A program made the translations under genes and the position numbers. A stretch of 64,000 nucleotides of DNA from a virus: positions 58,467 through 122,466 of IMG/VR virus record IMGVR_UViG_3300023179_000031; one strand, written 5' to 3'. The first letter of the stretch is position 1. Every line of letters begins with the position of its first letter. The notes below the pieces were generated by a model. The model was not told where the DNA came from, searched no databases, and saw nothing but the letters and a program-made list of their open reading frames with translations. Below, one piece after another: positions 2,179 to 32,655 of this stretch.

Positions 2179-3036
2179 ATGAACGACAAATTGTTAACTA
2201 TTGGCATGGCGACATATGACGATTATGATGGTGTTTATTTTACAACACAAGCATTAATGCTATATCATGATATTCTTAAAAATATAGATTACGAAATATT
2301 GATTATAGATAACAATCCACATGGTCAACACGCTTCTTTAGTTCGTGATTTGACCCATTGGATGAGCGGCAGAGGTAGATATATCCCATATGAAAACAAA
2401 ACAAGCACAGCAGTAAGAAATGAAATTTTTGTAAATGCGAATGGCAAATATACAATATCATTAGATTGCCACGTTCTTTTAGCTCCAAATAGCATAAATG
2501 CTCTATTGGATTATTATTCACAAAATCCAGACTGTAAGGATATAGTGCAGGGTCCAATGTTGTATGATGATCAAATTAATTATTCTACGCAGTTTGATCC
2601 CGTGTGGCGTGGAGATATGTATGGCATTTGGGGTTCTAATAAAGAGGCATACGAGTTAGGAAAACCATTTGAGATCCCAATGATGGGTCTTGGTACGTTT
2701 TCTTGTGAAACCAAGAACTGGAGAGGATTTAATAAGAGCTTCAAGGGTTTTGGTGGCGAAGAAGGATATATACATGAAAAATTCAGACTCAATGGTGGTA
2801 AAGCTATATGCTTGCCACAATTTAAGTGGACGCACAGATTTGGTAGACCAAATGGTGTAAAATATCCACTTGTGTTAGAAGATAGAATTTGGAACTATTT
2901 TGTTGGATGGCTAGAGCTAACACAAGATCCAGAACATAAAATGATTCGTGATACTTACGAACATTTTAAGAATAAGATACCACCAAATAGTATAGATAAT
3001 ATTTTACATCTAGCTATTAATGAGGTTTTGTCATGA
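2179..3036 (+). CDS. GT-A glycosyltransferase with DxH and GGE motifs (polypeptide GalNAc-transferase-like)
   Basis: The N-terminal fold is GT2-like (EILIIDNNPHG, residues 39-49). The metal motif is D96-C-H98 (DxH) instead of the usual DxD. Downstream are GFGGEEGYIHEKFRLNGG (190-207) and WTHRFGR (217-223). In GT27 polypeptide GalNAc-transferases, DxH, WGGEN and a later His in GHVFR form the Mn and donor-binding site, and all three elements have a counterpart here in the same order. GT7C-type galactosyltransferases also carry a GGE motif, so the sugar and acceptor are not settled. A good ribosome site (AAGGA) precedes the ATG. The stop overlaps the start of the radical SAM gene (ATGA), so the two are coupled. 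Confidence 0.75.
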   Translation: MNDKLLTIGMATYDDYDGVYFTTQALMLYHDILKNIDYEILIIDNNPHGQHASLVRDLTHWMSGRGRYIPYENKTSTAVRNEIFVNANGKYTISLDCHVLLAPNSINALLDYYSQNPDCKDIVQGPMLYDDQINYSTQFDPVWRGDMYGIWGSNKEAYELGKPFEIPMMGLGTFSCETKNWRGFNKSFKGFGGEEGYIHEKFRLNGGKAICLPQFKWTHRFGRPNGVKYPLVLEDRIWNYFVGWLELTQDPEHKMIRDTYEHFKNKIPPNSIDNILHLAINEVLS

Positions 3037-4019
3037 TTGATTTGTTGCCAATCATCAAAGATTCTTTTTCTAAATATAAGATCAGAGATATGCAACTAGA
3101 CCCCAATGGTCTATGTAATGCTGGATGCTGGTTTTGCCCAGTTAAATATTTAGGAAACCCAAAAGAATCTCAAGGGCAAATGCCAGTAGATCTTCTTGAG
3201 AAAATATTTGCAAATATTGTATCTGAAAGAAGACCAGACGGTTTAGTTGATATGGGTTTCAACGGATTCTATACAGCGCATTATAATGAAATACTTATGT
3301 ACAAGTATTTTGAGGATTTGCTAAAACTGTGTAGAAAATACAATTTTATTTTTATGGTATTATCCAATGGAACAACTCTAACACCAAAAAAAACAGATTT
3401 ATTAGTAGAATATCAAGATGTTCTTTCTGGCGTTTGTTTAAATGTTCCATGTTTTGAGCCTGAATTATGGTCAAAACGTGTTAACCTATCTGAAAAACTA
3501 TTTCCACAGTTAGTGACCAATATAAAATACTTTATAGATCATCATCCAATGAAACTATCTATTCAAGTAAATGGGTGGAATAAAGAAAATAATTGGCTTG
3601 ACAAAGGTCCAAATTTTCCAGAAGACTTAACAGATGAAGAAAATGATAGGCAAGTAGAAATAGCAAAGTCTATGTTTCCACAAGCAAATGTATTTAAAGT
3701 ATTCCATTTAATTGATCGTGCTGGATATATTGCAGACGTAATTACTAATAAAAATGCAATAGATCGATATAACGGAAATAAACAAGTTATTGGATGTATG
3801 AACTCATATGAAACTGGCGGAAGACCAGTTGGTTGGGTACATGTCAATGCTCACGGTGAATGTTTTCTGTGTTGCAATGACTACACTATGGAAATAAAGT
3901 TTGGAGATTTCAAAACACAAGAATTAAAAGATTTTTGGGGTAAAGAAGATCATATAAATAAAATCAAAGAGTCTTATGAGACTATTTGTAAAAAATGTGC
4001 GTCAGCAAAATACTTATAG
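3033..4019 (+). CDS. Radical SAM enzyme with SPASM-like C-terminal cysteines
   Basis: C28-x3-C32-x2-C35 is the [4Fe-4S] motif of radical SAM enzymes. The C-terminal region has further cysteines (GECFLCCNDYT, then CKKC near the end) and a GDFKTQELKDFWG segment, the layout of SPASM or twitch domains that bind auxiliary clusters. Such enzymes modify peptides, sugars or nucleotides through a 5'-deoxyadenosyl radical. The substrate is unknown. It overlaps the upstream glycosyltransferase by ATGA, so a joint role in glycan or glycopeptide modification is a reasonable inference. Length (328 aa) is normal. Confidence 0.8.
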   Translation: MIDLLPIIKDSFSKYKIRDMQLDPNGLCNAGCWFCPVKYLGNPKESQGQMPVDLLEKIFANIVSERRPDGLVDMGFNGFYTAHYNEILMYKYFEDLLKLCRKYNFIFMVLSNGTTLTPKKTDLLVEYQDVLSGVCLNVPCFEPELWSKRVNLSEKLFPQLVTNIKYFIDHHPMKLSIQVNGWNKENNWLDKGPNFPEDLTDEENDRQVEIAKSMFPQANVFKVFHLIDRAGYIADVITNKNAIDRYNGNKQVIGCMNSYETGGRPVGWVHVNAHGECFLCCNDYTMEIKFGDFKTQELKDFWGKEDHINKIKESYETICKKCASAKYL

Positions 4020-4028
4020 GAGAATATA

Positions 4029-5520: not shown

Positions 5521-7125
5521 ATGTTGAACTGGTTTCCTCTGAATAACTATACTCATTATAGTTTGCTAAAAGGTTTTTCTAAGCCAGAAGAATTGGCTGA
5601 TAAATGCAAAGAAAACGGTTATCCAGCCTGTGGTATTTGTGACTATAAGACAATATCTGGCGCTATATCTTTTTACAAAGCCTGCAAAAGTGCTGGCATA
5701 AAGCCTATAATTGGCTGTTCTTTTGATAAGTTCAAAGTTTTTGCTAAGAACAAGTCTGGATGGCATGACCTAATTGAATTAGTGTCATCTATAGATGAGA
5801 GTGGTGATTTATCAGAAGATTTATTTAGTAAGATCTTTGATAGAAAAAATCTCATTAAAATATCAAATGTTGCAAGTAAGTCTATGCCAGATAGTTATTA
5901 TGCAAATAAAGAGGACGCAAAGCTGCATAGAATACTTCTATGTTCAGACATGAAAACAACCCTACCAAAAATTAATAAGGCTATTAAGCAAGAAAAAAAC
6001 GCCAGCTTACTCATGGATAATCATGCAGACAAGCTAGATTATTTCCTATTTGATAAGTTTTATCTACTAGATAAAGAAGAATCTAAGGGACTAGAAACAA
6101 CTAAGCTAGAAGAGATTTACAATCAGTGCGAAGACTATGATATTTTAAGTAAGCCAAATCTTCCAAAGTTTGCTTGCCCAAACAATCAGTCAGAAGAAGA
6201 CTATCTTAAGGAACTTTGTCGCATTGGATGGAAGAATCTATTAATCGATAATGATAAAGTTTCTAAGCCAGAAGACAAGCAGAAATATCTAGATAGATTT
6301 AAAGAAGAGTTTGACGTTATTAAGGGTGCTAACCTGTTCGGATATTTTCTAATCGTTCATGATATTATACATTATTGCGAAAGTCAAGGTTGGCTTTGTG
6401 GTCCCGGCAGAGGTTCTGCTGCTGGATGTTTAATATCTTATCTAATTGGAATTACAAAGATTGATCCACTAGAGTTTGATCTTCTGTTTGCACGTTTTTA
6501 TAATGCCGGTAGAAATAGTGAAGATCATATTTCTTTGCCAGATATTGATATGGACGTTCCCGGTAACAAGAGGGATGAAGTTATAGCTTATCTGAAGGAC
6601 AAGTATGGACACGACCACGTTAGCCAAATGATTACATTCGGCAGATTACGCGGCAGAAGCGCAATTAAAGAAGTGTTACGAGTTAATGAAGCTTGTTCTT
6701 TTAGTGAAATGAACGCTATAACCAAAAGCGTACCAAACGAAGCTGAAATCTCAGATCAGCTTGCAGATATGGATGACGAAGAAAGATCTATTATTAGGTG
6801 GGCATTAATTAATAGGTCAAGTGACTTGAGAGATTTTTGCTATATCAATGATGATGGAAAACTAGAAGGAAACTATGCCGAATATTTTGAGCAAGCCATA
6901 AAGATTGAGGGTACATTTAAAACGCAGGGAAAACATGCTGCCGGTGTTGTTATCTCTGCTAAAAGATTGAATACGGTTTGCCCAATGGTAAAGCAGCGTG
7001 GATCGACTGAAAAGATTGCAGGACTTGAAATGTCAGACCTTGAAAGTCTAGGTCATGTCAAATTTGATATTTTAGGAATTACGCTCTTGGATAAATTGAT
7101 GTATATCCAGAAAACTTGTGTATAG
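5521..7125 (+). CDS. dnaE: DNA polymerase III alpha, N-terminal half (PHP, palm; all three catalytic Asp)
   Basis: Residues 1-70 are a PHP domain whose metal motif is degenerate (CDYK at 40-43 where active PHP domains have TDHG), as in E. coli DnaE. GPGRGSAAG (294-302) and PDIDMD (340-345) supply catalytic Asp341 and Asp343. QGKHAAGVVIS (469-479) and VKFDILG with Asp516 follow. The frame then ends at residue 534, in the linker that in intact enzymes leads to the FQLES motif. That motif opens the separate C-terminal half at 8517. The two halves add up to about 1060 aa, close to a complete phage or bacterial alpha subunit, with almost nothing missing at the break. The stop is TAG. An AAGGA ribosome site precedes the ATG. 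Confidence 0.9.
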   Translation: MLNWFPLNNYTHYSLLKGFSKPEELADKCKENGYPACGICDYKTISGAISFYKACKSAGIKPIIGCSFDKFKVFAKNKSGWHDLIELVSSIDESGDLSEDLFSKIFDRKNLIKISNVASKSMPDSYYANKEDAKLHRILLCSDMKTTLPKINKAIKQEKNASLLMDNHADKLDYFLFDKFYLLDKEESKGLETTKLEEIYNQCEDYDILSKPNLPKFACPNNQSEEDYLKELCRIGWKNLLIDNDKVSKPEDKQKYLDRFKEEFDVIKGANLFGYFLIVHDIIHYCESQGWLCGPGRGSAAGCLISYLIGITKIDPLEFDLLFARFYNAGRNSEDHISLPDIDMDVPGNKRDEVIAYLKDKYGHDHVSQMITFGRLRGRSAIKEVLRVNEACSFSEMNAITKSVPNEAEISDQLADMDDEERSIIRWALINRSSDLRDFCYINDDGKLEGNYAEYFEQAIKIEGTFKTQGKHAAGVVISAKRLNTVCPMVKQRGSTEKIAGLEMSDLESLGHVKFDILGITLLDKLMYIQKTCV

Positions 7126-7161
7126 TATTACGTCAAACTTTACACCCACTGGAGATTAACC

Positions 7162-7857
7162 ATGATTACTCATGAAAAATTAAAGCAAATGCTTCATTTA
7201 GAAAATAAGAGCCAAAGAGAAATATCACAAGAACTGGGCATTAGCGAGGCTTGCGTTTCGCAGTACGCTAAAAAATATGGATTAAGGAGAAAGCCAGAAG
7301 AAAGATATATTGGTAAAAGATTTGGAATATTAACGGGTAAAAAGGTTGTTGGTCAGGACGATTATTCTCATAATATGATTGAATGTGTTTGTGATTGTGG
7401 TAATACAATTGTCATTGTGTGCCACTCTTTAACAAGTGGTAATACAAAAAGCTGCGGGTGTGAAGCAAGAAAGCGTGGAAAAGATCGTGCAAACTATCGC
7501 GGTTATGAAAATATCCAACAAAGTTATTGGAGTAGTATAATTAAAGGTGCCGATAAAAGAAATTTAGAAATGTCTATTTCAGTTGAATATGCTTGGAGTC
7601 TATATGAAAAGCAAGGTAAAAAATGCGCTGTAACTGGAGTGCCAATATTTTTTCCACAAACAAGAAAAACTGCAAATAAATCGACAGCATCACTAGATAG
7701 AATAGATAATACAAAGGGCTACATTGAAGGAAACGTGCAATGGGTACATAAGAAAATAAATCAAATTAAAATGGATTTGACAATTGAAGATTTTTTTGAA
7801 TTATGCAAAAGCGTAGTTAATTATAACAATTTATTGGAGAAACAGAATGGCAAATAG
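7162..7857 (+). CDS. HNH homing endonuclease inserted in the broken polymerase locus
   Basis: The protein has three parts: an N-terminal helix-turn-helix (residues about 15-40, REISQELGISEACVSQYAKK), a zinc-ribbon-like segment (CVCDCG at 75-80 and SCGC at 97-100), and a C-terminal HNH core (CAVTG at 155, SLDRIDNTKGY about 177-187, GNVQWVH about 190-196). This is the make-up of phage HNH homing endonucleases, which cut alleles lacking the element. It sits between the polymerase halves. Its start is in frame with the upstream half, separated by one TAG and 12 sense codons. Its end overlaps the exonuclease start by 11 bases. GGAG is the ribosome site. Confidence 0.85.
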   Translation: MITHEKLKQMLHLENKSQREISQELGISEACVSQYAKKYGLRRKPEERYIGKRFGILTGKKVVGQDDYSHNMIECVCDCGNTIVIVCHSLTSGNTKSCGCEARKRGKDRANYRGYENIQQSYWSSIIKGADKRNLEMSISVEYAWSLYEKQGKKCAVTGVPIFFPQTRKTANKSTASLDRIDNTKGYIEGNVQWVHKKINQIKMDLTIEDFFELCKSVVNYNNLLEKQNGK

Positions 7858-8527
7858 AGATTTTGTCGTGTTCGATTTTGAAACGGGAAGTAGGAATCCT
7901 CACAGAACTCAGCCAACACAAATTGCAGCATTAGCTATTGATGGTCGCAATCTATCTGTTAAGGGTCAATTTAATAGTGAGATTAAGCCCATATTTGAGG
8001 ATGAGTTAGCTATTGCCGCTGGGTTTGATCCACTAGAAGATGAGGCTTTAAAAATTACAGGAAAAACAAGAGAGGGTCTTGCTAATGCTCCATCTCTGAA
8101 GTCAGTGTGGTCTAAGTTTACAAAGTTTGTTGATCAGTATAACTGGAAGGGTGATTCTTTTTATGCTCCAATTCCAGTTGGATTTAACATTGTAGGTTTC
8201 GACTTAATTATTGTGAATAGGTTATGCAAGGAATTTGGCCCTTGGGATAAGGATAAAGAACATCAAAAGCTATTTAGCAAGGTGTACAAGGTGGATATAA
8301 TGGATAATGTCTTTCTATGGACAGAAGGTGATCCAAGTGTTAAGTCTATTAGCATGGATTCACTGAGGCAAAGAATGGGACTAAGTAAAGAAAATGCTCA
8401 CGACGCTTTGCAAGACGTTAAAGATGAGGCTAATATATTCATCAAGCTATTAAAAACACATAGGTCCGTGTATCAGAATATTACTTTTGAAAATGCGTTT
8501 GCCAACGGTGGATTATATGTCAAATAA
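7847..8527 (+). CDS. DnaQ-like DEDDh 3'-5' proofreading exonuclease
   Basis: DFETG (D10, E12), a central NIVGFD (D119) and AHDALQD (H185, D190) make a complete DEDDh exonuclease active site, as in the Pol III epsilon subunit DnaQ. Since the polymerase PHP domain lacks metal ligands, this separate enzyme is the likely proofreader. Its position inside the broken polymerase gene should give co-expression with both halves. The start (ATG 7847, GGAG upstream) overlaps the HNH stop. The end overlaps the start of the C-terminal polymerase half by 11 bases. At 226 aa it is a normal single-domain length. Confidence 0.85.
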   Translation: MANRDFVVFDFETGSRNPHRTQPTQIAALAIDGRNLSVKGQFNSEIKPIFEDELAIAAGFDPLEDEALKITGKTREGLANAPSLKSVWSKFTKFVDQYNWKGDSFYAPIPVGFNIVGFDLIIVNRLCKEFGPWDKDKEHQKLFSKVYKVDIMDNVFLWTEGDPSVKSISMDSLRQRMGLSKENAHDALQDVKDEANIFIKLLKTHRSVYQNITFENAFANGGLYVK

Positions 8528-10097
8528 TGTAAATATTGATTATAACTGCAAAAAGACTTGGGGATTGTTTGCTGAAGGCAAGACCAAAGGGATCTTTCAG
8601 CTAGAAAGTAACCTTGGGAAATCATGGTCTAAAAAACTAGCTCCGACAAATCTAGAAGAGCTATCAGCATTGATTGCTATCATTAGGCCGGGAACTCTTA
8701 AAGCATTTGTCGATGGCAAGAGCATGACGCAGCACTATGTTGATAGAAAGCATGGTAGAGAAGAAGTAACTTATTTGCATGAATCTCTAGAAGAAATATT
8801 AAAGCCAACATATGGTGTGCTTGTGTACCAAGAGCAGTCAATGCGTATTGCACAAAAAGTTGCTGGATTTAATCTTCAAGAGGCTGACGTTTTACGCAAG
8901 GCAATCGGTAAGAAAAAGGCCGACCTCATGAATGAAGTAAAGAAGTCATTTATAGAGGGTTCTCAAAAAGTTGGAATAGTTACTAAAGAAGAAGCAGAGC
9001 AAATCTTTGGATGGATCGAAAAGTCTGCACGATATGCTTTTAATAAATCTCATAGCGTTTCATATGCAATGTGTTCGTATTGGAGTGCATATTATAAAGC
9101 GCATTACACTCCTCAGTTTTTTCTATCGTATCTACACTATGCAAATGAAAAGCAAGATCCACATAGAGAAATATATGAGCTTATCTCAGAGGCAAAATTA
9201 TTTGACATTCAATTAAGAACTCCAAATATTACAAATTTTAGTAACAAGTTTGTTCTTAGGGAAAACAATAAGATTTATTTTGGTGTAAAGGATATAAAGT
9301 CATTAACTGGCAAAACCGGCGATGCTCTTGAAGAAGCTATAAAACTAGCAGAGCAAGCATCTGGAAAAAAAATATCATCTTTTTCTTGGTTAGATGTTCT
9401 TGTATTTTTTAGTCCATATGTTAATTCTACATCTTTTAAAGCTTTAGCGTCTGTTGGATTTTTTAGGGGCTTTAAGGAAAAAGTATCTCGCAATAAAGCA
9501 TTGTATGATTATGATATATTTAAGACTTTAACAAAGGCTGAACAGACTTGGATATCAAACAACTACGAAGCTAAAAAGTGGACATCATTCGTAGAGTGCC
9601 TTAAAGACTTGGCACCAACTAAAAAAGAGGGCGGTGGCACAAGCAAAGTTGACAGAAAACAGGCTATTACAAATGAGATACAGCTACTTATTGATCCACC
9701 ATACGATCTTGAAGATGATGCAGGCTGGATTATTGATCAAGAAACAAAGTTCTTAGGTTGTCCGGTAACATTGTCTAGAATTGAAACATCTGATAGCTCT
9801 GCCGCAAACACTACTTGCAAAGAAATTATCAATGGTAAAAAGGGTAAGGATTTGTGTGTTGTGGCAAATATACAAAGGTTATCAGATTATACGATAACCA
9901 AGGGCGAATCAAAGGGGCAAATCATGTCATTTCTAACCATAGAAGATGAATCATGTATGCTTGATAGCGTGATTGTGTTTCCTCAAGTAAAAGAGAAATA
10001 TAGATATGTATTATACGAAGGTAACAATCTAATTTTTTGTGGATCTGTAACAGGTCAAGACAATGCGTTTATTGTCAACAAGATTCATGAAATTTGA
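8517..10097 (+). CDS. dnaE: DNA polymerase III alpha, C-terminal half (fingers, beta-binding region, OB fold)
   Basis: The protein begins a few residues before FQLES (27-31) and continues with IRPGTL, RKHGREEVTY and the fingers segment GVLVYQEQSM ... EADVLRKAIGKKK, in the same order as intact DnaE. The last ~90 residues are an OB-fold (VVANIQRLSDYTITKGE ... FLTIEDE). No catalytic Asp is present, so it needs the N-terminal half at 5521-7125. I chose ATG 8517, with GGTGGA upstream and overlap with the exonuclease end, over an in-frame TTG at 8487. No intein residues are seen at the start, so the halves probably associate without splicing. Confidence 0.88.
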   Translation: MSNNVNIDYNCKKTWGLFAEGKTKGIFQLESNLGKSWSKKLAPTNLEELSALIAIIRPGTLKAFVDGKSMTQHYVDRKHGREEVTYLHESLEEILKPTYGVLVYQEQSMRIAQKVAGFNLQEADVLRKAIGKKKADLMNEVKKSFIEGSQKVGIVTKEEAEQIFGWIEKSARYAFNKSHSVSYAMCSYWSAYYKAHYTPQFFLSYLHYANEKQDPHREIYELISEAKLFDIQLRTPNITNFSNKFVLRENNKIYFGVKDIKSLTGKTGDALEEAIKLAEQASGKKISSFSWLDVLVFFSPYVNSTSFKALASVGFFRGFKEKVSRNKALYDYDIFKTLTKAEQTWISNNYEAKKWTSFVECLKDLAPTKKEGGGTSKVDRKQAITNEIQLLIDPPYDLEDDAGWIIDQETKFLGCPVTLSRIETSDSSAANTTCKEIINGKKGKDLCVVANIQRLSDYTITKGESKGQIMSFLTIEDESCMLDSVIVFPQVKEKYRYVLYEGNNLIFCGSVTGQDNAFIVNKIHEI

Positions 10098-10462: not shown

Positions 10463-12124
10463 ATGAGAAAGAAAAGGATTCTATTTTGCAGCGAAGCAAC
10501 GTTTCTCAATACTGGATATGCAACATATACTAGAGAAGTATTGAATTATTTGCATGGAACAGGTAAATATGAGTTGGCAGAGCTAGCTGCATATGGCGAA
10601 AGAAATGATCCAAGAGCTAGATCTATTCCTTGGCGTTTTTATGGTGTAACACCGCCAAAAGAAGCTAGCGACGAAGAAAAACAAAGATATGCCTCTATTC
10701 CAACAAATCAGTTTGGAGAATATGCTTTTGAAGGTGTATGTCTAGATTTTCGTCCAGATATAGTTTGTGATATTAGAGACTTCTGGATGTTAGATTTTGC
10801 TGAAAGATCTCCATATAGAAACTTTTTTAAGTGGGCTATTATGCCAACTGTTGATGCTGCACCGCAAGCAAGGCAGTGGATAGCAACATATCAATCTGCT
10901 GATGCATGTTTTACTTATTCAGATTGGGCTGGAGAAGTTCTCAAAAAACAATCTGGTGGATTAATTAATTACTTAGGAAGCGCACCACCTTCTGCTCATG
11001 CTGCTTATCAACCAATTCAAAATACAGATAGCCTAAGAGAATATTTTAATATAGATCCAGATACAAATATTATCGGAACAGTTATGCGTAATCAAAGACG
11101 CAAATTATATCCAGATTTATTTGCTGCATTTAGAATGCTATTAGATAAAGTTGAAGACAAGCATAAGTATATACTATATTGTCATACTAGTTATCCAGAC
11201 ATGGGCTGGGACTTTCCAGAATTACTACAACAATATGAGTTGTCTTCTCATGTTATGTTTACATATGTTTGTCCAGATACTGGAAAGCCATTTCCATCTA
11301 GATTTAGAGGAGCTATAGCACAGTCTCCATTTACTGGAAAGTATAACTGTGCAATGTCAAATGTAAAAACTGGACTTAGCTATGAAGATCTTTCAGTAAT
11401 TATAAATCTATTTGACATATATGTTCAGTATGCTAACTGTGAAGGTTTTGGATTGCCACAAGTTGAGGCTGCTGCCTGTGCAGTTCCAGTAATGGGTACT
11501 GATTATTCAGCGATGGAAAGTGTACTAAGGCAACTTGGCGGTATTCCAATTAAGCCAAAGGCTCTATACAAAGAGCTTGAAACAGGATGTTTTAGAGCAG
11601 TTCCAGACAATGAATTAGCTGCACAAAAGCTATTTGAGTTTTTCCAGCAACCAAAAAATCTAAGAAAAAGAATGGGATTTAATACAAGACAGGCATTTTT
11701 AGAACATTTCCAATGGGATAAAACTGGATCAATGTGGGAAAACTATTTTGATAGTGTTGAGATTCAGCCAGAAGAAAAAACTTGGAAGTCTTTTCCTCGT
11801 ATTAATTATCCAAAGCCAAAACCACGGCAGCTTCCAGAAGGTATTTCCCATGAAGAGTTATCCAAGTGGCTAATAACAGATGTTCTCTGTGAACCAGAAA
11901 AAGTTAATTCTTTTATGCACGCTAGATTAACAAGAGATTTAATGTATAGATGCTCTACCGCAACAACCGGTGGAATGTATTTCAATGAAAGTTCTGCAAA
12001 TTTTGATGCTAAAAACATAAGGAACCCATTTAATTTTGATATGGCGTATGAACATATGGCTGCTTTGTGTCATAGAAGAAATAATTGGGAACAAAAAAGA
12101 GCGGAGGCGTTTGGTCTATCATGA
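10463..12124 (+). CDS. GT-B glycosyltransferase (GT4-like), first gene of glycan block
   Basis: This 553-aa protein has a GT-B layout. The C-terminal nucleotide-sugar site shows the E-x7-E pattern (CEGFGLPQVEAAACAVPVMG, residues about 325-345). Around residue 210 is MRNQRRKLYPDLFAAF, the segment starting the second Rossmann domain. It should transfer a sugar from an activated donor. Donor and acceptor are unknown. The C-terminal ~110 residues after the GT core are an extra region without a recognised domain. It begins 3 bases after ssb and overlaps the next gene by ATGA, starting a run of eight coupled genes. Confidence 0.75.
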   Translation: MRKKRILFCSEATFLNTGYATYTREVLNYLHGTGKYELAELAAYGERNDPRARSIPWRFYGVTPPKEASDEEKQRYASIPTNQFGEYAFEGVCLDFRPDIVCDIRDFWMLDFAERSPYRNFFKWAIMPTVDAAPQARQWIATYQSADACFTYSDWAGEVLKKQSGGLINYLGSAPPSAHAAYQPIQNTDSLREYFNIDPDTNIIGTVMRNQRRKLYPDLFAAFRMLLDKVEDKHKYILYCHTSYPDMGWDFPELLQQYELSSHVMFTYVCPDTGKPFPSRFRGAIAQSPFTGKYNCAMSNVKTGLSYEDLSVIINLFDIYVQYANCEGFGLPQVEAAACAVPVMGTDYSAMESVLRQLGGIPIKPKALYKELETGCFRAVPDNELAAQKLFEFFQQPKNLRKRMGFNTRQAFLEHFQWDKTGSMWENYFDSVEIQPEEKTWKSFPRINYPKPKPRQLPEGISHEELSKWLITDVLCEPEKVNSFMHARLTRDLMYRCSTATTGGMYFNESSANFDAKNIRNPFNFDMAYEHMAALCHRRNNWEQKRAEAFGLS

Positions 12125-13233
12125 AAATATTGTATATAGCACATTACAAAGAGGGTAGTGGGTGGTCTAGGGCTGCTCTAGATTATATCTTAGCTTTAGA
12201 TCAAAATGGTTTTGATGTAGTTTGTAGGAATGTACAGTTAACATCTACTGAGCATCCCGTACCAGAGAGAATACATGAATTAGAATCTAAACCTTTAACT
12301 GGGGTTGATGTTTGCATACAGCATCTTCTTCCTCATCATATGATTGGGACTAAAAAATTCAAAAAAAATATCGGCGTTTTTGTTAGCGAGACAGATAGTA
12401 TAAAACACACATCTTGGTTTACATTTCTAGCAAACGTTGATCAAATTTGGGTTCCAAATTCTGATAATAAACTAAGGCTAACTACGGATGGTTTTAAAAA
12501 TGTTGAAGTTGTTCCATACGCTTTTGATCTATCAAATTATAAAGACAGGCCAAAAATAAATCTTTATAGTGCTAACAATAAGTTCAAGTTTTATTATATT
12601 GGCGATCTAAATGATAGAAAGAATTTAGCAGGAATTATAAGGGCATTTAATAGTGAGTTTTGTAATGGTGAGCCAGTAAGTCTAGTTATTAAAATAAGAA
12701 AGTATGGCGTACAACCAAAGCAATTGCATGATGCTTTCGTGAAGTTTTCTCAGCAGATAAAATCTCAGTTAAGAATTCATAAGAAGCTAGAACACTATCC
12801 ATCAGAGATAGTAATAACAGCAGATGCTGGAGATGATGTTATACATAGTTTACATAATACATGTGATTGTTTTGTTGGTCTTTCTCATGGCGAAGGCTGG
12901 TCTATACCAGCGTTTGAATCAATGTGCTATGGTAAAACTCCCATATGTAGCAATGAAGGTGGACCAAAAGAATTTATAGACGCTAATGATATTAATACCG
13001 GCTCTTTAATTGATGGGGTATACTCTGTCTGTTCTCAGAATGATCCAGCTTTTGGCGATATTTTTACAGGTAGAGAAAACTGGTTTCAACCAAGCGAACA
13101 ATTAGCCAAAAAAGCTATGAGGTTTTACTACGAAAATTCTCACAAGATAGATAGATCTATCGGATTAAAAACAGCAGAAAAGTTTAGTTATCAAAATATA
13201 GCTAAGAAAATAAAGGATGTTCTAGATGAGTAA
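12121..13233 (+). CDS. GT-B glycosyltransferase (GT4-like)
   Basis: The N-terminus MKILYIAHYKEGSGWSRAAL is a typical GT-B nucleotide-fold start with an acceptor-site Gly-rich turn. The C-terminal GEGWSIPAFESMCYGKTPIC (about residues 256-275) is the E-x7-E donor site. I chose ATG 12121, which overlaps the previous stop as ATGA, over an upstream in-frame codon at 12085. It probably adds a sugar to the same glycan as its neighbours. Donor specificity is not visible. Confidence 0.78.
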   Translation: MKILYIAHYKEGSGWSRAALDYILALDQNGFDVVCRNVQLTSTEHPVPERIHELESKPLTGVDVCIQHLLPHHMIGTKKFKKNIGVFVSETDSIKHTSWFTFLANVDQIWVPNSDNKLRLTTDGFKNVEVVPYAFDLSNYKDRPKINLYSANNKFKFYYIGDLNDRKNLAGIIRAFNSEFCNGEPVSLVIKIRKYGVQPKQLHDAFVKFSQQIKSQLRIHKKLEHYPSEIVITADAGDDVIHSLHNTCDCFVGLSHGEGWSIPAFESMCYGKTPICSNEGGPKEFIDANDINTGSLIDGVYSVCSQNDPAFGDIFTGRENWFQPSEQLAKKAMRFYYENSHKIDRSIGLKTAEKFSYQNIAKKIKDVLDE

Positions 13234-24001: not shown

Positions 24002-24003
24002 AG

Positions 24004-27000
24004 TTAACTCCATGAACTAAGTTTGTCTGATCCTTCGATTCCCTGAGAATTCATTTCTTGTATCATGTCTACATTATTTCTAGCTACAACAGACATATTT
24101 GGATGATCTTCAAAAGAAGCTGGTGATTTGTCTTCGATTAAATTTGTTGATGCAGAATTGTAAAATTTAAAACCAAAAATTTTAGCATTATGATTAAGAA
24201 ATTCAATGCCTTGTATAAGTAGATTTGAAGACATCATTGATGCTTCTATGTGGCGTTCGCTTAGTTGCGTATTAACGCCGCCCTGTAAGTTTGTTCCATC
24301 ATCAACTAAGAACGAGTTGACATTTTGTGGAAGAACAGAAATAACAGAAGTATCTACGGGTTGTGATGCTAAACCTCCAGTAACTAGATCTGTATTCATG
24401 CTATCATATCTCATAGAATTTTCAATATTTTTGTAAAGTTGTTGATAATTAATATTTGATTGATTTTTACCAATACCTTTTCTAATTAAAGCATTTTTTT
24501 CGTCTCTTTGTTTTTGTCTATTTCTACTTATATTAGAAATATTATCTAATTTTTGTTTTTGCATTTTTCCAAAACTGGCTGTATACAAGTCCATTTTATA
24601 TGTAGTTTTTATTCCAGCTTGAGATACATCTACAGATATATTAGTTACTAATGGGCCTGCATTACCAAGAGATCTTGCCAAGGCTACTCCACTTGGAGCC
24701 GCTGGAACAACAAAGCCACCCCTTTCAGAAACAAGCATAGCGCTAGTACCAAACGCTGAATGCATTTGTCCAACAGCGTTCATTAAATCAAATCCATTAT
24801 AATTCCAAGGTGCCAAATTCTCATCTTTAACAAATTCTAATTTTCCACCAACTTGGTCTGTAGATACATAAGATGATAACCAAGGACCATAGCATCTTTC
24901 AGATGATCTCAATGGTATAGCCACTAAATCTGGATAAACTGGCGACGGAGATGCGGCAGTAATTTTATTCGGTAAAGAAAATGTAAGACCCTCAAAAGTT
25001 TTGTCAATTGCGGCTTCAGCGTCTGGGCCAAGACCTTCAGAAGACAATGTGCTATGAATATCTCTTTGTGTTCCGCTTGGTAATGCTGGAACATCAAAAC
25101 CATCCACACCTTGGACTGTATCTAAAAGTAAAAAGTGTTTTAAATTTGCTGGAAATACTTTTTCTTTAAGGCTATCTCTATATCTTGAAGTTACTGTTGG
25201 AAATATTCTATTTGGCAGCGTGATCAAAGCGTAAACATTGTCTGTGTCTAATTCAAAGTTTGGATTAACAACGGTAATGCTCGAATTTGTTATTGGTGCC
25301 GCCGTTGTTGTAACATAATTCGGTGGATTTGTAGTCGAGGTTGTTGTAGTTGTTGCTTCAACGGCTTGACTTATAATATCAAAAATTCTTACATTTGATG
25401 AATAATCTGACTCTCCGGGGATTGGACTATATAATCTCTGAATATATCTAAAACTATCTTTATTAGTACATTTTATTGGATCAAATATTTTATTTGGAAT
25501 AGAAAGAGTGGTAGTATATTGAACTTCTCTTCCATGCACTTTTATTGATCGAACAGAGCTTTTTGGTGGCATGTATAATGTTTCACTAACATCACATTTT
25601 ACGAAAGCAACACATCCAGAAGGCGCTAAATCTGCCGAAGATGGATCAAACTTGTCTCCGGTGCGTGAAGAATTTTCTAATTGATAAGATATATCTGGAA
25701 TAAAATATCCAGCCTTTATAACCTGTTGAGTAAAACTATCTTTGCTTATACCATCAAATGATAGTTGTTCACTATTGTCAAATCTTACATAAGCAGAAAT
25801 TCTAGAATTTTCATTTACAAAATTTGTTGCGTCCAGTGGTATAAGTCCAGCATTTATACCATAATTAGATCCAGCACTTGAAGCTAATAAGTCGAATGGA
25901 TAATATCCACCTTGATTATCTGGAGTATAATTAGATTCATATTGTTCTGTTATTGGATTATAATTTATTTTTAATGCTCCATAATATGGATCTAAACCGC
26001 CAGACAATTGATAGTTGTTCATTCCACTGCTATCTGGCAAATCGTCAAGATTGTCACGATGCAATGGATCATTATTAATAGATCTTCTCATGAATCCAAA
26101 TGGGCCTTTTCGGATTTCCATAGATGAGCCAACACCAACGGTAGACACTGTTGTGCTATAATTAGGATTAACCCTCTTAGGAATTTTTACTAAGAATTTT
26201 TTGCCTAAACATTCATCTGCTATATTTTTTAAGAAGTTGTAAACACGGTGCGCATTTTGATTATTTCTTTGGGCGGTTCTTTGAGATCCAGCAACTATGG
26301 GTCCAAGTTGGTTAAGCATTTTTTCTATCAAAGCAATGTTTCTAGTTCCACTATTTAATGAAGTTTTGATAAATTGATAGAATTCTTTTTCTGCCTCGCT
26401 TTTTCCAGCGACATTATTATCTAATTCTTTAGATATTGAATTTAATACTCCAACAAATTCTTTATCATTTGTTGTATTTCTGAGTGCTGTAAGTTGAGTA
26501 AATAACTTAGTGCCAATAGATGTTAAATTTGCCAAACCGGCTTGAGGTATGCCAATTTGAGTAGCTCTTTTATAATACAACGGATAACCATAAGGTGGAT
26601 TGCATGGGCTTTTTGGTATACCATTTGCGTCATATCCGTTTTGGTCGGATGTCCAAACCGATCTAGGAACTGTAACCGCATAATTACTGGATACTTCTAT
26701 TGGAATATTAATACCAATGGCTGCAAACTCATTTACAGTATTGTTTATACTAGCAATATCTCTTATATCATTACTTTCAACAGACTCCATATACAATTCA
26801 TTATACATCATTAAAAATTCTGACCATCTTTCAAAGGATATTGCAGCCGCCCTCAATTCCATTTCTGTGGCAACGTAATAGTTTCCAACACCATTAGCAT
26901 TAAGAGTGCTTGAATCTAGTAATATTTGCTGATATGATCCAAAACCCTTTGGTATTGTTACAGCTTTATTTCCAAGCATACCATAATATGGTAATACTTG

Positions 27001-28539
27001 TTGTGCAAATGAAGCTTCTAATGACCACTGTGGGTATCCGCTTGTGCGCGATGTTTTGTCTCTATCTGTATTAGTTGTAAAATAATGCATATCAACTTCT
27101 TGCGCACCAACCAAGAACTTGTCTGTAACAGTGTTTGCAAGCTCGTATCCAACATCTCTATTTTCAATAGGAAGTGTTAATGAGTCTAAATATGTCTTAA
27201 TAGCAGTTAATGACGGTGGTGACGATTTATCTATAGCGATTACTTTGATAATGCCAGCAATTATTTCTTGTGGTTTGTTTCCTGCAATTTTACCATTATT
27301 GTAGTTGTATAATGCTTGACAAGCTGGATGATTTATTACCGGAAGCAAAGTTACAAATAATTCCCAATTTAATATTTCACAAATTTCTAAACATAGATCT
27401 AAAACATTTATCTGATCATAATCTAAAAAGTAAAACTGTGGTAAAACAGGAAGACCAGTTAAATCAACAACATAATTCATCCCTCTAAAATTAATATATC
27501 CTCCAAAACCAGCATCTTTATATTCTTGAGGCATTTGACCGTCAAAACCAGACATGGCATTTATAGCTTGCACTATTCTGTAATACGGTATACCCTGTTG
27601 ACATCTCCTAGATCTACCAGTTCCTGTGATTGGGAATTTTGTTGGAAAAGTACCAATTGCTGATTGATTAAATTCAAATTTTACAGAATCTTGATATAAA
27701 GTATTTGAAGATGGAATTCCTCGCGGATAATACATGTCTGTTCCAACAAAACCGTATGATCCATCACTATTTTTGATTTTTTTTAACACAGACGCATTTG
27801 ATCCACCGTAATAACTTTCATATTGTGATGAATTAAATTCTAAGAATCCAAAAATATTAAGTATATTTTGTCCACCATATGTTGAGCCTGCGTAATTATT
27901 AAGAATAAGCTGAACATTTGATAAAACTTCTCTTGGATCAACAATTTGCGCTGAATATATTGGTGTTCCCGCTGAACTTTTATTTTGAGTGAATGTTTGT
28001 AATATCCCACCAAAAGTAAAATGATCTCTAGCATAATTACCTTGAGATGAAGTAAAATCATATAAATCATCAAATGGTTTTAAGAATGCATCTTGAACAG
28101 AAGCTCTTTTTGCCCCAAAACTAAAAAATACCGGACTGCCAACTGGCGGTGGCATGAATTGATCTTTAACGCCATTATGGTATACATCTTGACCTCTACC
28201 AAGGCCAGATCCATCAGACTTATTATATTCATCTTCAACAAGCTGTATTCCAAGAGTTGAACTACTATCACCAAATCCAGCGTTTACACTAAAACTAGAT
28301 ATAGATGCGCCAAGAAATGTTTGTTGTTCATATGTTGGATACGTACCGCCAGCAACACTAAGATCTGTTAAAGATAATGAATTTGGATCAACTGTCGTGG
28401 TTGTAGTTGTTGTAGTTGTTGATGTAGTTGTTGTAGTAGTAGTTGTTGTAGTAGTAGTTGTGGTGGTTGTAGAAGTTGTAGCACCATTTGGATCTGGAGT
28501 CGTGTTTATTGGTGGGTATGGTGGAATAAATAATGTCAT
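24004..28539 (-). CDS. Large tail protein with N-terminal poly-Thr tract
   Basis: The 1511-aa protein opens with a Pro-rich start (MTLFIPPYPPINTTPDP) and then a stretch of about 30 threonines (residues about 20-50) broken only by Ser. A second Thr tract (ATTTTTSTTNPPNYVTTTAAP) lies near residue 1060. The rest is a long region without a recognised domain. Residues about 1360-1400 are charged and helical (KMQKQKLDNISNISRNRQKQRDEKN). An AAGGATATATT site precedes the ATG. By position it belongs to the tail tip or adhesion device. Confidence 0.6.
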   Translation of the reverse strand: MTLFIPPYPPINTTPDPNGATTSTTTTTTTTTTTTTTTTSTTTTTTTTTVDPNSLSLTDLSVAGGTYPTYEQQTFLGASISSFSVNAGFGDSSSTLGIQLVEDEYNKSDGSGLGRGQDVYHNGVKDQFMPPPVGSPVFFSFGAKRASVQDAFLKPFDDLYDFTSSQGNYARDHFTFGGILQTFTQNKSSAGTPIYSAQIVDPREVLSNVQLILNNYAGSTYGGQNILNIFGFLEFNSSQYESYYGGSNASVLKKIKNSDGSYGFVGTDMYYPRGIPSSNTLYQDSVKFEFNQSAIGTFPTKFPITGTGRSRRCQQGIPYYRIVQAINAMSGFDGQMPQEYKDAGFGGYINFRGMNYVVDLTGLPVLPQFYFLDYDQINVLDLCLEICEILNWELFVTLLPVINHPACQALYNYNNGKIAGNKPQEIIAGIIKVIAIDKSSPPSLTAIKTYLDSLTLPIENRDVGYELANTVTDKFLVGAQEVDMHYFTTNTDRDKTSRTSGYPQWSLEASFAQQVLPYYGMLGNKAVTIPKGFGSYQQILLDSSTLNANGVGNYYVATEMELRAAAISFERWSEFLMMYNELYMESVESNDIRDIASINNTVNEFAAIGINIPIEVSSNYAVTVPRSVWTSDQNGYDANGIPKSPCNPPYGYPLYYKRATQIGIPQAGLANLTSIGTKLFTQLTALRNTTNDKEFVGVLNSISKELDNNVAGKSEAEKEFYQFIKTSLNSGTRNIALIEKMLNQLGPIVAGSQRTAQRNNQNAHRVYNFLKNIADECLGKKFLVKIPKRVNPNYSTTVSTVGVGSSMEIRKGPFGFMRRSINNDPLHRDNLDDLPDSSGMNNYQLSGGLDPYYGALKINYNPITEQYESNYTPDNQGGYYPFDLLASSAGSNYGINAGLIPLDATNFVNENSRISAYVRFDNSEQLSFDGISKDSFTQQVIKAGYFIPDISYQLENSSRTGDKFDPSSADLAPSGCVAFVKCDVSETLYMPPKSSVRSIKVHGREVQYTTTLSIPNKIFDPIKCTNKDSFRYIQRLYSPIPGESDYSSNVRIFDIISQAVEATTTTTSTTNPPNYVTTTAAPITNSSITVVNPNFELDTDNVYALITLPNRIFPTVTSRYRDSLKEKVFPANLKHFLLLDTVQGVDGFDVPALPSGTQRDIHSTLSSEGLGPDAEAAIDKTFEGLTFSLPNKITAASPSPVYPDLVAIPLRSSERCYGPWLSSYVSTDQVGGKLEFVKDENLAPWNYNGFDLMNAVGQMHSAFGTSAMLVSERGGFVVPAAPSGVALARSLGNAGPLVTNISVDVSQAGIKTTYKMDLYTASFGKMQKQKLDNISNISRNRQKQRDEKNALIRKGIGKNQSNINYQQLYKNIENSMRYDSMNTDLVTGGLASQPVDTSVISVLPQNVNSFLVDDGTNLQGGVNTQLSERHIEASMMSSNLLIQGIEFLNHNAKIFGFKFYNSASTNLIEDKSPASFEDHPNMSVVARNNVDMIQEMNSQGIEGSDKLSSWS
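28394..28480. repeat. Low-complexity (GTT/GTA)n tract encoding poly-Thr
   Basis: Imperfect trinucleotide repeats on the plus strand read as Thr codons (ACA, ACT, ACC) on the minus strand. Codon types are mixed, so the tract is not a simple homogeneous repeat. Slippage would change length in whole codons only. Confidence 0.85.
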
Positions 28540-28872: not shown

Positions 28873-31800
28873 TTATTTTTTTGGTGGCGTAAGACTGTTT
28901 TTACTAACATTTGTTTTATTATCTTCTCGTACTTTAAAATTAGGATCTTCAAAATTTGCTACGATTGTTGGTAATAAATTGGATTTTACAATACCCGGAG
29001 TTTTAGTGTCATTATTTACTGGAAGTTGATATGTTCCTACTGGTGGTTTTGGTATCCTTGTTGTTGTTGAAGTTGTTGTAATCGTTGTAATACCAGTTGG
29101 AATAATTGGTGCTAAAGTTGTTGTTGTTGTTCTTGTAAAGATGTTATTTTGTGGTTTTATTGTGGTTGTAGTGATGATGGTTGGCATTGATGTGGTATAT
29201 ATTGGCTGAAATATTGTCGTGGTAATATAGGGGTTCAGTGGGTTTCGTGTTGTGGTTGTGGTGGGAGCTTTAGTAGTTGTCGTACTTGTGGTTGTCGTTG
29301 GAATGGCTGTACCAATGAAAGAAACTGTCTGAATATTAATTTCATTTTTTGGCGGAATTGTCACATATATGATATAACTATAAGTTAAAGTTCCATTTAT
29401 TATTGTTTTGTTAAGTACAGCCTCGACTGGAAAAGAACAATGAACACTTGGTATAATATCAAAACCATATCCATTATCTGGCCTTAAAAATATTTCACCA
29501 AGTCTAGCTCGCTTACCAACAGATAATTCGCTTTCTAATGTTAGCGATTCCGTGTTTAATTTACAGTTTTGAATAATATTTGTAAGACGAACAGAAAAAG
29601 TGTTTTTTTCTGGAGGAATTGTTGTTGTCGTTGTTGTTGTAATAGTAGTTGTAGTAGGTATAGGTATTGCTTTGCCACGTATAGTTAATTTTTGATAGTT
29701 ATTGTCTCCGATTTTTGGGATTGTTCCATATACATAAACATAATAGTAACATTTTCCACCAAAACATTCTGTTTGAAGGCTTGCATTCAGCGGTGCAAAC
29801 GCATTGAGAATTGATAGATTTTCTAGTCTAATTTCATATCCATCGTCTGGATATATAGAAACTAATGCAAGTTGAAAACCGGCTCCAATTGGTAACAAAG
29901 AAGACGCTAACGTTGTATGACTTAGCGTTGCGTTTTCAATCTCGTCAATAAATTCTACAGAAAAAATATTTGATGGTGGTCTGGTTGTTGTGGTTGTGGT
30001 AACAGTAGTTGTTGTGGATGTAGTTGTTGTGGTAGATGTTGCGGGAGCGACAGTGGTGGTTGTAGTAGATACTACGGGAGCATTGGTAGTTGTTGTAACA
30101 ATTGGGGTTGCTTTCCCGCGTATAGTTAATTTTTGATAGTTTTTATCTCCAATATTTGGAATTATACCATCCATGTTAATGTCATAATAATATTTGCCAT
30201 TTACATACGATATATTAATTGACGCATTCAGGGGTGGAGATCTATTAAGAATAGATACATTTTCTGCTTTAATTTCATATCCTTTATCTGGATATATGGA
30301 AACAGATGGAATTGTAAAAGCTTGACCGGGACTTAAAAGCGGTGACGATACATTTGTCTTGCTTAGTGTTGCATTTGCAATTTCATTTACAAGCTCTACA
30401 GAAAACGAGTTGTTTGGCGGTTGAGTTGTAGTCGTTGTTGTAGTAATGGTTGTAGTTATAGCCCCATCGCCCTTTACAACTAAATTAATAGGTATGTTCA
30501 AAGTAACATCTTGATCTAAAAATTTACTCAAGTATGGGTATGTATTATAATTATCATAATCATATTGGACAAGATATAACCGCGTGTAACCTGTTGCCAG
30601 TTTTGCACTTAAAAGTCGAATTCTACCAATAATAAGATTGTTTGCATTTCGAATATACAAAATTAACCCCGCTGGGGATGAAAATATTTCGTATGGGCTA
30701 GATGGGTTAAATTGAACAAAATATTGAATTTCTGCTACAATTGATCCAGGTTCCACAGATGCAGAAGAAAATGTTTGAGTTTTATTGCCAAAAAAATAAA
30801 CAATATCGCTTGCATCAGCGCCATTTTGAAATTTAGCAGATGGATAAAAATTAACTGTAATATTCTTTGGTGGAGAAATTTGTTTAAATATTATCTTTAT
30901 GGCAACGTTGAAAGATCTAGCAACGTCTAATCGCGGAGTAGATGTGGATGCGTCGGCGGAACCTTCTACAACAAAAGAGCGATCTACTGGATCAAATTTA
31001 ACTATACCAGTATCAACAATTTGTCCAGCAGAATTTGTTAAATAAAAATTTTGTCCATTTGGATATCGCACTTCTTTAATTTGTAATAATGAATTTTGTA
31101 TTGAATAGTATATCTTTTGAGTACTAAAAAATTTATTTCTATTTCCACATGCTGATAGGGCGTTATTAACTATTGTAAAAGGTACTGTAGTATCACTTAT
31201 CTGTGTTCCATCTTCAAATTCAGCAGAAGTAATATAATTTAATGTAACGCACGGTGTCTCTCCGGGTTTTGAAGTTGTTGTAGTTGTTGTAGTTGTTGTA
31301 GTTGTGGTTGTTGATGTAGTGGTAGTAGTTATGGTAGTTGTTGCTGCCGGTATAGTGGTTGTAGTAATAGCGCAAGTGGATCCATTAATTTCTATAGTAA
31401 TGTCGCCGTCACCATCAAACCAAGGTAATTCATAGAAAGTACTAGTTAAAATATACCTAGTTCCTAGCGCTGTGTCTGTATCAAAATTAAATGTAGGAGT
31501 ATTATTATATGAAAAAGTTAGTGCTTGTGATGGATTTCTTTTTCCAAAACTATAAAATCTTGCAGATAAACTTGACCTCATTTCTCCGCTAGTAGAATTA
31601 TATCTACAATCAAAAGTATAGCCATTATTTGCAGTAATTGTTATTGAAACAGATGATCTTGGTATTGTCCAAGGCGGTCCAGAAGATGAATCTGCAACAA
31701 TTTTAGATCTAGACACTCTAATGGTAGAGTTTGGAACATTATTAACATATTCAATGTTTAGTGTACGCAATTTAGGTGCGGCGGTTGTTGTAGTGGTTGT

Positions 31801-32655
31801 TGTCGTGGTGGTTGTTGGTCCTTTATATTTTAGGATCAATTTTATTGGTACAGTGTAAGATCTATTTATATCTAGATTAGCTGGCCAATTAATCCCATTT
31901 ATTGTGCTGATTATAAATCCACGAAATCCATAATCTATTTTAAGTGTACCTATGTCGTTTAAGCGTGAATCACGAATAGTAACAGTCTGTGAATTAGGAT
32001 AATTTATGTATAATACTTCGTAGTTGGTGTCCGCTAACGTGTATTCAGCAATATTATTTAAGGAGCTAGTATCGCCACAAAGTGTTATTGAATTATTACC
32101 CTTCCAAGATATTGCGCCCCGTATTGGTGTTCCATTTTCTAATTCTGATGATGGAGTCAGGTCTATGGTTACGCATTTAGGTTTTACAGTTGTGGTTGTT
32201 GTGGTGCTAGTAGTAGAATTAATAATTATATCATAATAGCTTGCGCTGTTTAATATACCTTCATAATAACTATATGGTAATAATATTGAATTACAAGTTG
32301 ATGGTGATGGGTAGCCTATAGTCTTAATGGTTACACTTGCCCCAACAGCATAGCGAATATAAACTCTTCCATCTTGATCTTGCGCAAAATAAGTTTCATC
32401 GGCTATAATTGGATCAGTAGTAACAGTAAATTTATTAGATGCATAATAATCTGTAGACAAAGATGGCAAATTTGAAAAATTATATCTAAGATTAATGTTT
32501 CTAGATGAAGATATGTAAACTACAACATTAAATTCCCAATTTTTTGTTAAACATATTGATGGTATATCTCCTGTAATTTTAAACGAAATTACACCAGTGG
32601 CGCTATTTCCTTTTCTTTGAACATTTTTGGTTATAAGTCGAACTGAATACGCCAT
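28873..32655 (-). CDS. Mucin-like tail protein: repeated beta domains joined by seven Thr tracts
   Basis: The 1260-aa protein is a chain of beta-rich domains separated by poly-Thr linkers. Three related modules near the C-terminal side begin (S)FSVEL/FSVEF/FSVRL and end with a TIRGKA- or FIGTAI-like strand. Modules earlier in the chain share a pattern of PSSELENGT, TSAEFEDGT and PSAKFQNGA. The C-terminal ~150 residues are Thr/Pro/Ile-rich. No lectin or enzyme motif is recognised. I chose ATG 32655, one base after the preceding stop, over GTG 32664. Such Thr tracts are typical O-glycosylation targets in other systems. Confidence 0.65.
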   Translation of the reverse strand: MAYSVRLITKNVQRKGNSATGVISFKITGDIPSICLTKNWEFNVVVYISSSRNINLRYNFSNLPSLSTDYYASNKFTVTTDPIIADETYFAQDQDGRVYIRYAVGASVTIKTIGYPSPSTCNSILLPYSYYEGILNSASYYDIIINSTTSTTTTTTVKPKCVTIDLTPSSELENGTPIRGAISWKGNNSITLCGDTSSLNNIAEYTLADTNYEVLYINYPNSQTVTIRDSRLNDIGTLKIDYGFRGFIISTINGINWPANLDINRSYTVPIKLILKYKGPTTTTTTTTTTTAAPKLRTLNIEYVNNVPNSTIRVSRSKIVADSSSGPPWTIPRSSVSITITANNGYTFDCRYNSTSGEMRSSLSARFYSFGKRNPSQALTFSYNNTPTFNFDTDTALGTRYILTSTFYELPWFDGDGDITIEINGSTCAITTTTIPAATTTITTTTTSTTTTTTTTTTTTTSKPGETPCVTLNYITSAEFEDGTQISDTTVPFTIVNNALSACGNRNKFFSTQKIYYSIQNSLLQIKEVRYPNGQNFYLTNSAGQIVDTGIVKFDPVDRSFVVEGSADASTSTPRLDVARSFNVAIKIIFKQISPPKNITVNFYPSAKFQNGADASDIVYFFGNKTQTFSSASVEPGSIVAEIQYFVQFNPSSPYEIFSSPAGLILYIRNANNLIIGRIRLLSAKLATGYTRLYLVQYDYDNYNTYPYLSKFLDQDVTLNIPINLVVKGDGAITTTITTTTTTTQPPNNSFSVELVNEIANATLSKTNVSSPLLSPGQAFTIPSVSIYPDKGYEIKAENVSILNRSPPLNASINISYVNGKYYYDINMDGIIPNIGDKNYQKLTIRGKATPIVTTTTNAPVVSTTTTTVAPATSTTTTTSTTTTVTTTTTTRPPSNIFSVEFIDEIENATLSHTTLASSLLPIGAGFQLALVSIYPDDGYEIRLENLSILNAFAPLNASLQTECFGGKCYYYVYVYGTIPKIGDNNYQKLTIRGKAIPIPTTTTITTTTTTTIPPEKNTFSVRLTNIIQNCKLNTESLTLESELSVGKRARLGEIFLRPDNGYGFDIIPSVHCSFPVEAVLNKTIINGTLTYSYIIYVTIPPKNEINIQTVSFIGTAIPTTTTSTTTTKAPTTTTTRNPLNPYITTTIFQPIYTTSMPTIITTTTIKPQNNIFTRTTTTTLAPIIPTGITTITTTSTTTRIPKPPVGTYQLPVNNDTKTPGIVKSNLLPTIVANFEDPNFKVREDNKTNVSKNSLTPPKK
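29055..29305. repeat. Thr/Pro/Ile-rich C-terminal low-complexity region
   Basis: Several (GTT/GTA/GTG)n stretches encode the Thr-rich tail of the 28873-32655 protein, interrupted by short Pro/Ile/Gln segments. Confidence 0.7.
29678..29700. repeat. 23-bp direct repeat, copy A
   Basis: The same 23 bases occur at 30119-30141. Both encode the end strand (QKLTIRGKA) of neighbouring duplicated modules, showing a duplication recent enough to keep DNA identity. Confidence 0.85.
29982..30098. repeat. Low-complexity tract encoding a Thr-rich linker
   Basis: Mixed Thr codons with a few Ala, Pro and Val codons separate two duplicated modules of the mucin-like tail protein. Confidence 0.75.
30119..30141. 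repeat. 23-bp direct repeat, copy B
   Basis: Identical to 29678-29700; see that entry. Confidence 0.85.
31273..31369. repeat. Low-complexity tract encoding the longest Thr run of the mucin-like protein
   Basis: GTT/GTA/GTG repeats on the plus strand encode an almost pure Thr run with Ile, Ser and Ala interruptions, between two beta domains. Confidence 0.8.

Follow-up and report, generated by a model that had tools for sequence, protein, structure and literature searches.

A viral genome segment that encodes both a putative polypeptide O-glycosyltransferase and tail proteins with long threonine/serine (T/S) tracts raises the question of whether the one acts on the other. The segment analysed here (the window) is the 64,000-nucleotide stretch spanning bases 58467–122466 of a 122,466-bp viral contig from an uncultured tailed aquatic phage, close relatives of which are present in environmental viral contigs and were absent among the 50,697 phage records searched. 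A first-pass annotation had proposed that a GalNAc (N-acetylgalactosamine)-transferase-like enzyme starts O-glycans on the tracts, and that an eight-gene glycan block makes or extends them. All of the main elements it named, a glycosyltransferase (GT) of GT-A fold, a radical S-adenosylmethionine (SAM) gene, the glycan block and the Thr-tract tail genes, were found where it had placed them. Sequence comparison and structural modelling make it likely that this phage glycosylates its own virion, a GT27-like enzyme adding sugar to T/S tracts of tail and receptor-binding proteins. In the mechanism we propose, the enzyme would move sugar from a nucleotide donor onto the Thr/Ser hydroxyls of long tracts in these proteins, giving stiff, mucin-like, sugar-coated segments, and the radical SAM protein would be an optional helper. 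Catalysis by the enzyme, the identity of the sugar and the benefit, whether this lies in shielding, in resistance to proteases, in stiffer segments or in a change of binding, are what we infer.

The GT-A gene lies at 2179–3036 on the plus strand and encodes a putative polypeptide O-glycosyltransferase of 285 amino acids (aa), assigned on the basis of Pfam, fold and motifs. Pfam Glycos_transf_2 matched the protein with an E value of 1.2e-7, the top PDB match of the GT-A profile was TarP (GT2; E 5e-6), and a single-sequence phmmer comparison with GalNAc-T10 gave a weak match (E 0.24). An AlphaFold model built from 24 relatives had a mean predicted local distance difference test (pLDDT) score of 93.5, and every one of its best 50 Foldseek matches was a polypeptide GalNAc-transferase (ppGalNAc-T). 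The best 29 entries returned by VIA-align were ppGalNAc-Ts without exception; the alignment to GalNAc-T2 had a Z score of 24.3 and a root-mean-square deviation (rmsd) of 2.7 Å over 256 of the 285 residues, and the first enzyme outside GT27 was RmlT (Z 20.2, rmsd 4.7 Å). It can be seen that D96-x-H98, G192-x-E194-E195 and H219 are invariant across the 24 relatives and align to the DSH, WGGE and GH elements of GalNAc-T10; the DxH metal site, a further His and a Gal/GalNAc-T motif (WGGEN-like) are all present. As modelled, the catalytic domain of the window enzyme is a GT-A of the ppGalNAc-T type.

The eukaryotic GT27 enzymes share this fold over the entire length of the phage protein, together with the DxH, the second His and the GGEE-type motif. 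The window enzyme differs from them in being phage-encoded and cytosolic in a bacterium, and the two are only 12–18% identical. GT27 enzymes usually carry a ricin-type lectin domain, which is dispensable for catalysis. No C-terminal domain of this kind is present in the phage protein, which stops at residue 285, so that the catalytic domain alone aligns. Since the lectin domain is absent and the support from sequence-only profiles is indecisive, we call the enzyme GT27-like rather than a member of GT27. As in mucin-type O-glycosylation, where the acceptors are T/S(/P)-rich tracts, the phage tracts are the predicted acceptors.

Taking runs of at least eight T/S residues as tracts, the phage encodes at least seven virion-type proteins that carry them, three large ones within the window and another four beyond its limits. 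The three in the window are all on the minus strand: a putative tail protein of 1178 aa (20477–24013) with the tract TSSTTTTTT at about 23813–23839, a putative tail protein of 1511 aa (24004–28539) with an N-terminal T/S tract of 29 residues at about 28393–28479, and a Thr-rich putative tail protein of 1263 aa (28873–32664) that is 17% Thr and has five T/S tracts of up to 20 residues. The 1511-aa protein is kept in relatives, and its 29-residue tract was absent in the orthologues compared. A tail tape-measure gene on the same strand (45862–53067; phrog_4211, E 8e-20) shows that the tract genes belong to the tail module. The tract proteins outside the window bear adhesin-type domains, namely a major tropism determinant N-terminus, concanavalin-like lectin, RCC1 and fn3. 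Within the tracts Thr is encoded by ACA (102 codons), ACT (55), ACC (54) and ACG (13), and both Ser codon boxes are used, which indicates that residue identity is kept and that the tracts are not one slipped trinucleotide or DNA repeat. Further GT-like genes (DUF5672, GT4 and GT92; L003:7926-9709 and L004:5638-6390) lie outside the window close to Thr-tract adhesins, and the GT4 gene there is conserved in relatives that lack GT-A as well.

We next considered whether enzyme and tracts occur together among relatives of the window phage. In this clade the GT-A gene occupies one fixed site, preceded by the gene for a RecB-like nuclease and followed by a conserved gene of unknown function. A scan with the RecB protein, which is blind to tracts, gave 72 relatives that have GT-A and 8 that cleanly lack it, and a second scan using one GT-A-lacking relative as the query gave many more that lack it. 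The GT-A enzyme profile had no match in 28 GT-A-lacking records, while the positive control matched. A pure-Thr criterion, by which 26/41 GT-A contigs seemed tract-free, was dropped because several of the large ones held (TS)n; GT-A phages without pure Thr runs carry (TS)n instead, up to TSTSTSTSTSTSTSTSTSTS. A codon pattern for T/S runs was found in 13/30 GT-A-bearing contigs, among them nearly all of the largest ones, against 2/28 GT-A-lacking ones, and both of the latter matches were poly-Ser without Thr. For contigs of at least 40 kb, Thr-containing tracts were present in 18 of the 28 that bear GT-A and in none of the 14 that lack it (Fisher 4e-5); restricting this to the tract-blind contigs gave 14/24 and 0/14, respectively. 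One GT-A-lacking relative has a poly-Ser tract of more than 100 codons (G167 64814-65148, L540), with mixed Ser codons and no Thr.

In other phages the two genes adjoin one another: many unrelated phages carry the GT-A gene, and in a good number of these its immediate neighbour encodes a tail or capsid protein with long T/S runs. Among 80 further viral loci, found with a divergent GT-A profile and forming 43 clusters at 90% identity, an open reading frame (ORF) with a T/S tract was directly beside GT-A in 62 loci and in 30 of the clusters. The tract ORF was almost always upstream, with a gap of 7–14 bp or a short overlap, and the frequency of tracts in more distant genes of the same loci was 3/544. 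The tract partners are often small proteins rich in proline, threonine and serine (mean 45% T+S and 15% P) in tail-fibre clusters, and most of these end in a conserved C..C[NK]xLx[FY]. This signature, seen at the extreme C-terminus of the 164-aa protein L561:3495-3989 and of its counterparts encoded upstream of GT-A (L560-L639), may attach the protein to the virion or serve as a tag by which the enzyme docks. The wording of the tracts differs between phages (T18, (TS)n, (TTS)n and (TTTSSS)n), the hydroxyl being the common feature. With Thr-tract DNA as the starting point, GT-A relatives were found in 4 of 41 random contigs, the tract directly adjoining the enzyme in three, compared with 0/42 Gly-tract control contigs. 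The first-pass annotation held that independent distribution of glycan and tract genes in relatives would speak against a link. This is not what we find: GT-A and tracts co-occur in the clade and are near-overlapping neighbouring genes elsewhere, and at the level of sequence the relatives lend strong support to the association of enzyme and tract. In one GC-rich contig (L547:14135-16072) a GT27-like domain is fused with Methyltransf_24, 11 bp after a Thr-tract ORF.

Enrichment of known Pfam GT families beside random Thr tracts was weak alone; the strong signal among tract neighbours was that of a family which no Pfam model covers. Proteins of this family, of about 300 aa, were encoded at 12/95 Thr-tract loci, nearly always 0–31 bp downstream of the tract gene. 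Their model (pLDDT 95) has a GT-A fold nearest to glycogenin, LgtC, UGGT and LARGE (Z 13–15), and profile comparison showed the family to be unrelated to the window GT-A. This second, GT8-like enzyme, distinct from that of the window, resembles glycogenin/GT8, LARGE, UGGT and GlyE in fold (Z about 13–15), at only 7–14% identity. Two further Thr-tract loci encode PF11397 (GT60-type) enzymes together with a homologue of the window radical SAM protein; the homologues of PF11397 that XacN1/RAS14 encode are only remotely similar (24% identity), and no tract lies in their vicinity. The contrast of 18/95 with 2/70 (p 0.001) is indicative only, as the GT family was found post hoc.

The GT8-like family is present in about 75 cultured phage records, with hosts that include Lactococcus, Lactobacillus, Enterococcus and Staphylococcus, and a Thr-tract virion-module protein was found at the same locus in 11 of the 11 cultured genomes inspected. 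In the Lactococcus phages 1706 (GT, orf14), P1046 and CHPC971 the major tail protein, encoded immediately upstream of the GT, ends in TTTTTTTTTT followed by HHD or RHD; in 1706 this protein is orf13, its tract a C-terminal T10. The major tail protein of Enterococcus phiFL1A, gp50, has a 21-residue T/S tract, and its gene overlaps that of the GT (gp51). Tails of the TTTTTTTVKPTTTTTTT type are found in Lactobacillus PLE3 (tract protein, gp08; GT, gp09) and Bacchae, while a Mammaliicoccus phage, an Arcanobacterium phage and Chryseobacterium MA9V-3 have a Thr-tract virion protein in the GT8-like locus. In Enterococcus VPE25 and Lactococcus bIL285 the Thr tract is in the major tail protein, encoded a few genes from the GT8-like gene. 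Three proteins related to that of bIL285, from phages of Ruminococcus, Streptococcus and Geobacillus, lack the tail tract, and the GT8-like scans listed no record from these phage groups. Across the metagenomic (L085-L204) and cultured members, the tract is often at the C-terminus of the major tail protein. No GT27-like enzyme was found in cultured phages.

A comparable acceptor is known from Trypanosoma cruzi, whose Mn2+-dependent UDP-GlcNAc (uridine diphosphate N-acetylglucosamine):polypeptide alpha-GlcNAc-transferase was assayed with the test peptide KPPTTTTTTTTKPP (PMC3769586). The Thr runs of T. cruzi mucin acceptors (KPPTTTTTTTTKPP) are matched by near-identical TTTTTTTKPTTTTTT stretches in cultured phages, and in some phages the enzyme paired with the tracts belongs to PF11397. 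The differences are that the T. cruzi system belongs to the eukaryotic Golgi, and that the window enzyme is GT27-like and not PF11397.

The radical SAM/SPASM protein, assigned from its domain matches, is encoded at 3033–4019 on the plus strand, its gene overlapping that of GT-A by 4 bp. It had been described as coupled to GT-A, and this describes the overlap in the window and its recurrence elsewhere; it does not describe most close relatives, from which the gene is absent. It recurs beside GT-A (L066, L338, L339, L610 and L626) or beside tract genes (L090, L153 and L168). An obligate partnership was rejected, as only L066 among the 80 first-scan loci has the two genes adjoining, and the radical SAM protein is likely, from this distribution, to be a facultative partner or optional modifier. 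In L090:1865-5979, L153:6244-8153 and L168:2-1839 Thr-tract genes stand beside radical SAM and PF11397 or GT8-like enzymes; L090 additionally encodes 2-oxoglutarate-Fe(II) and TauD oxygenases, as if the tracts received several modifications.

We prefer self-glycosylation of the virion because fold and motifs, mixed-codon tracts, co-occurrence, adjacency and the independent GT8-like and GT60-like pairings all point to it. The tie between a phage-encoded GT and the phage's own virion proteins is a genetic one alone, consisting of adjacency and co-occurrence, and several observations weigh against our interpretation. Tracts do not require this GT-A, since 37/41 Thr-tract contigs lack it, and 10 of the 28 GT-A-bearing contigs are without a tract (incomplete contigs or other acceptors). 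The tree requires just four changes for GT-A, so that the clade contrast alone is suggestive and phylogenetically not strong. Bacterial homologues (84 matches in 84,980 species, one genome each) are mostly longer proteins and seldom lie near tracts, from which it would follow that tract pairing belongs to the phage form of the enzyme. In the window itself, GT-A sits in the replication module, separated from the tract genes by at least some 17 kb. This location would be explained if the enzyme glycosylated hydroxymethyl-pyrimidines in phage DNA, as in T4-like and other phages: in the clade it lies between the RecB-like nuclease gene and polymerase genes, and phage DNA glycosylation is already known (Pyle et al., 2024, as cited in PMC12619734). 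We nevertheless regard DNA, which the first-pass annotation had named as an alternative target, as a very improbable one, because no hydroxymethylase of the thymidylate-synthase family (PF00303) was present in 10 related genomes, where controls matched, because in other phages the gene stands in tail clusters beside tract genes, and because the nearest fold acts on peptides. A search for Tet/JBP (PF12851) was also empty, without a working control.

Scarcely better placed, in our judgement, is the idea that the host's surface polysaccharide is what GT-A and the block modify, for serotype-type conversion or superinfection exclusion, with the tracts as mere flexible linkers. Pathways for surface polysaccharides typically include GT-B, RgpF and nucleotidyltransferase genes, and the length of the bacterial homologues and their rarity near tracts would fit. 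This leaves unexplained the tight coupling of GT-A and tract, repeated with two other GT families, and a linker has no need of a Thr/Ser purity that is kept with mixed codons. That GT-A initiates and the entire eight-gene block extends the tract glycans in a single pathway is a more serious possibility than either of these, albeit one that we doubt. The block (10463–17436, plus strand) opens with three clade-core GT-B glycosyltransferases matching Glycos_transf_1, at 10463–12124, 12085–13233 and 13226–14212, the third of GT4 type. These are followed by a 143-aa protein (14209–14640) with no family match in Pfam or NCBIfam, so that its earlier label of methyltransferase-like found no backing there, and by a GlmU-like, sugar-nucleotidyltransferase-like protein (14637–15377), whose match to TIGR03992 is weak and below its cut-off (E 1.5e-8). 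The remaining genes encode u285 (15374–16231; 285 aa, no family, 29–35% conserved in the clade), an RgpF-domain protein (16224–17000; E 6.5e-11), for which no counterpart turned up in the seven relatives examined, and u157 (16963–17436; 157 aa, no family, 32–40% conserved).

Enzyme and block share a genome, the three GT-B enzymes and the nucleotidyltransferase-like protein could build an oligosaccharide, and every GT-A-bearing genome in the blast comparison has most of the block. Yet G084, which has neither GT-A nor tracts, retains GT1-GT3, the nucleotidyltransferase, u285 and u157, and in other phages the GT-A/tract pair is embedded in a tail cluster. The block lies with single-stranded-DNA-binding protein and recombination genes, away from GT-A. 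Its retention in G084 led us to reject a dedicated elongation pathway; the block is probably a separate core function of the clade that serves another or later step, and it could extend the tract glycan while being neither required for nor limited to it. Of the model first proposed for this locus, the link between GT-A and Thr tracts is therefore retained, and the making or extension of glycans by the block is not.

Virion glycosylation has been described for the mycobacteriophages Che8, Corndog and Myrna (Freeman et al., 2023, as reported in PMC12363180 and PMC12619734). There too, according to these papers, a GT encoded by the phage modifies its own virion, the capsid and tail-tube proteins being glycosylated at their C-termini, and they describe neither a T/S acceptor tract nor a GT27-like enzyme. 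The Che8 capsid and tail proteins, which we checked, differ in having no Thr tract. Our literature search found no description of T/S-tract acceptors with dedicated transferases. Self-glycosylation of phage virions is thus known, and our results suggest that what is new is a mucin-type form with pure hydroxyl tracts and convergently recruited, dedicated enzymes. On balance, and with less assurance than for the window phage itself, we favour the view that mucin-type O-glycosylation evolved repeatedly in phages, with pure T/S tracts, often Pro-spaced, and dedicated co-transcribed GTs of at least three unrelated families (GT27-like, GT8-like and GT60-like), some with radical SAM. This would include cultured dairy and enterococcal phages, and would amount to a widespread equivalent, among bacterial viruses, of the mucins of animals and trypanosomes.

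Phages are seldom regarded as glycoprotein viruses. If our interpretation is true, bacterial viruses have mucin-type O-glycosylation and evolved it on several occasions, using different enzymes, which would account for the long and puzzling stretches of Thr that the tail proteins of many aquatic phages contain. It would also bear on the resistance of phages to proteases, antibodies and grazers and on surface sticking, and would offer a source of compact soluble bacterial enzymes for mucin-like polymers. The idea is directly testable in cultured phages that have both the pair and T-tract virion proteins, namely Lactococcus 1706, Lactobacillus PLE3, Bacchae, Enterococcus phiFL1A and Chryseobacterium MA9V-3.

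Elsewhere in the window, at 5521–10097, a DnaE-type polymerase seems to be divided between two ORFs that flank an exonuclease and an HNH gene, and this split is kept across the clade.

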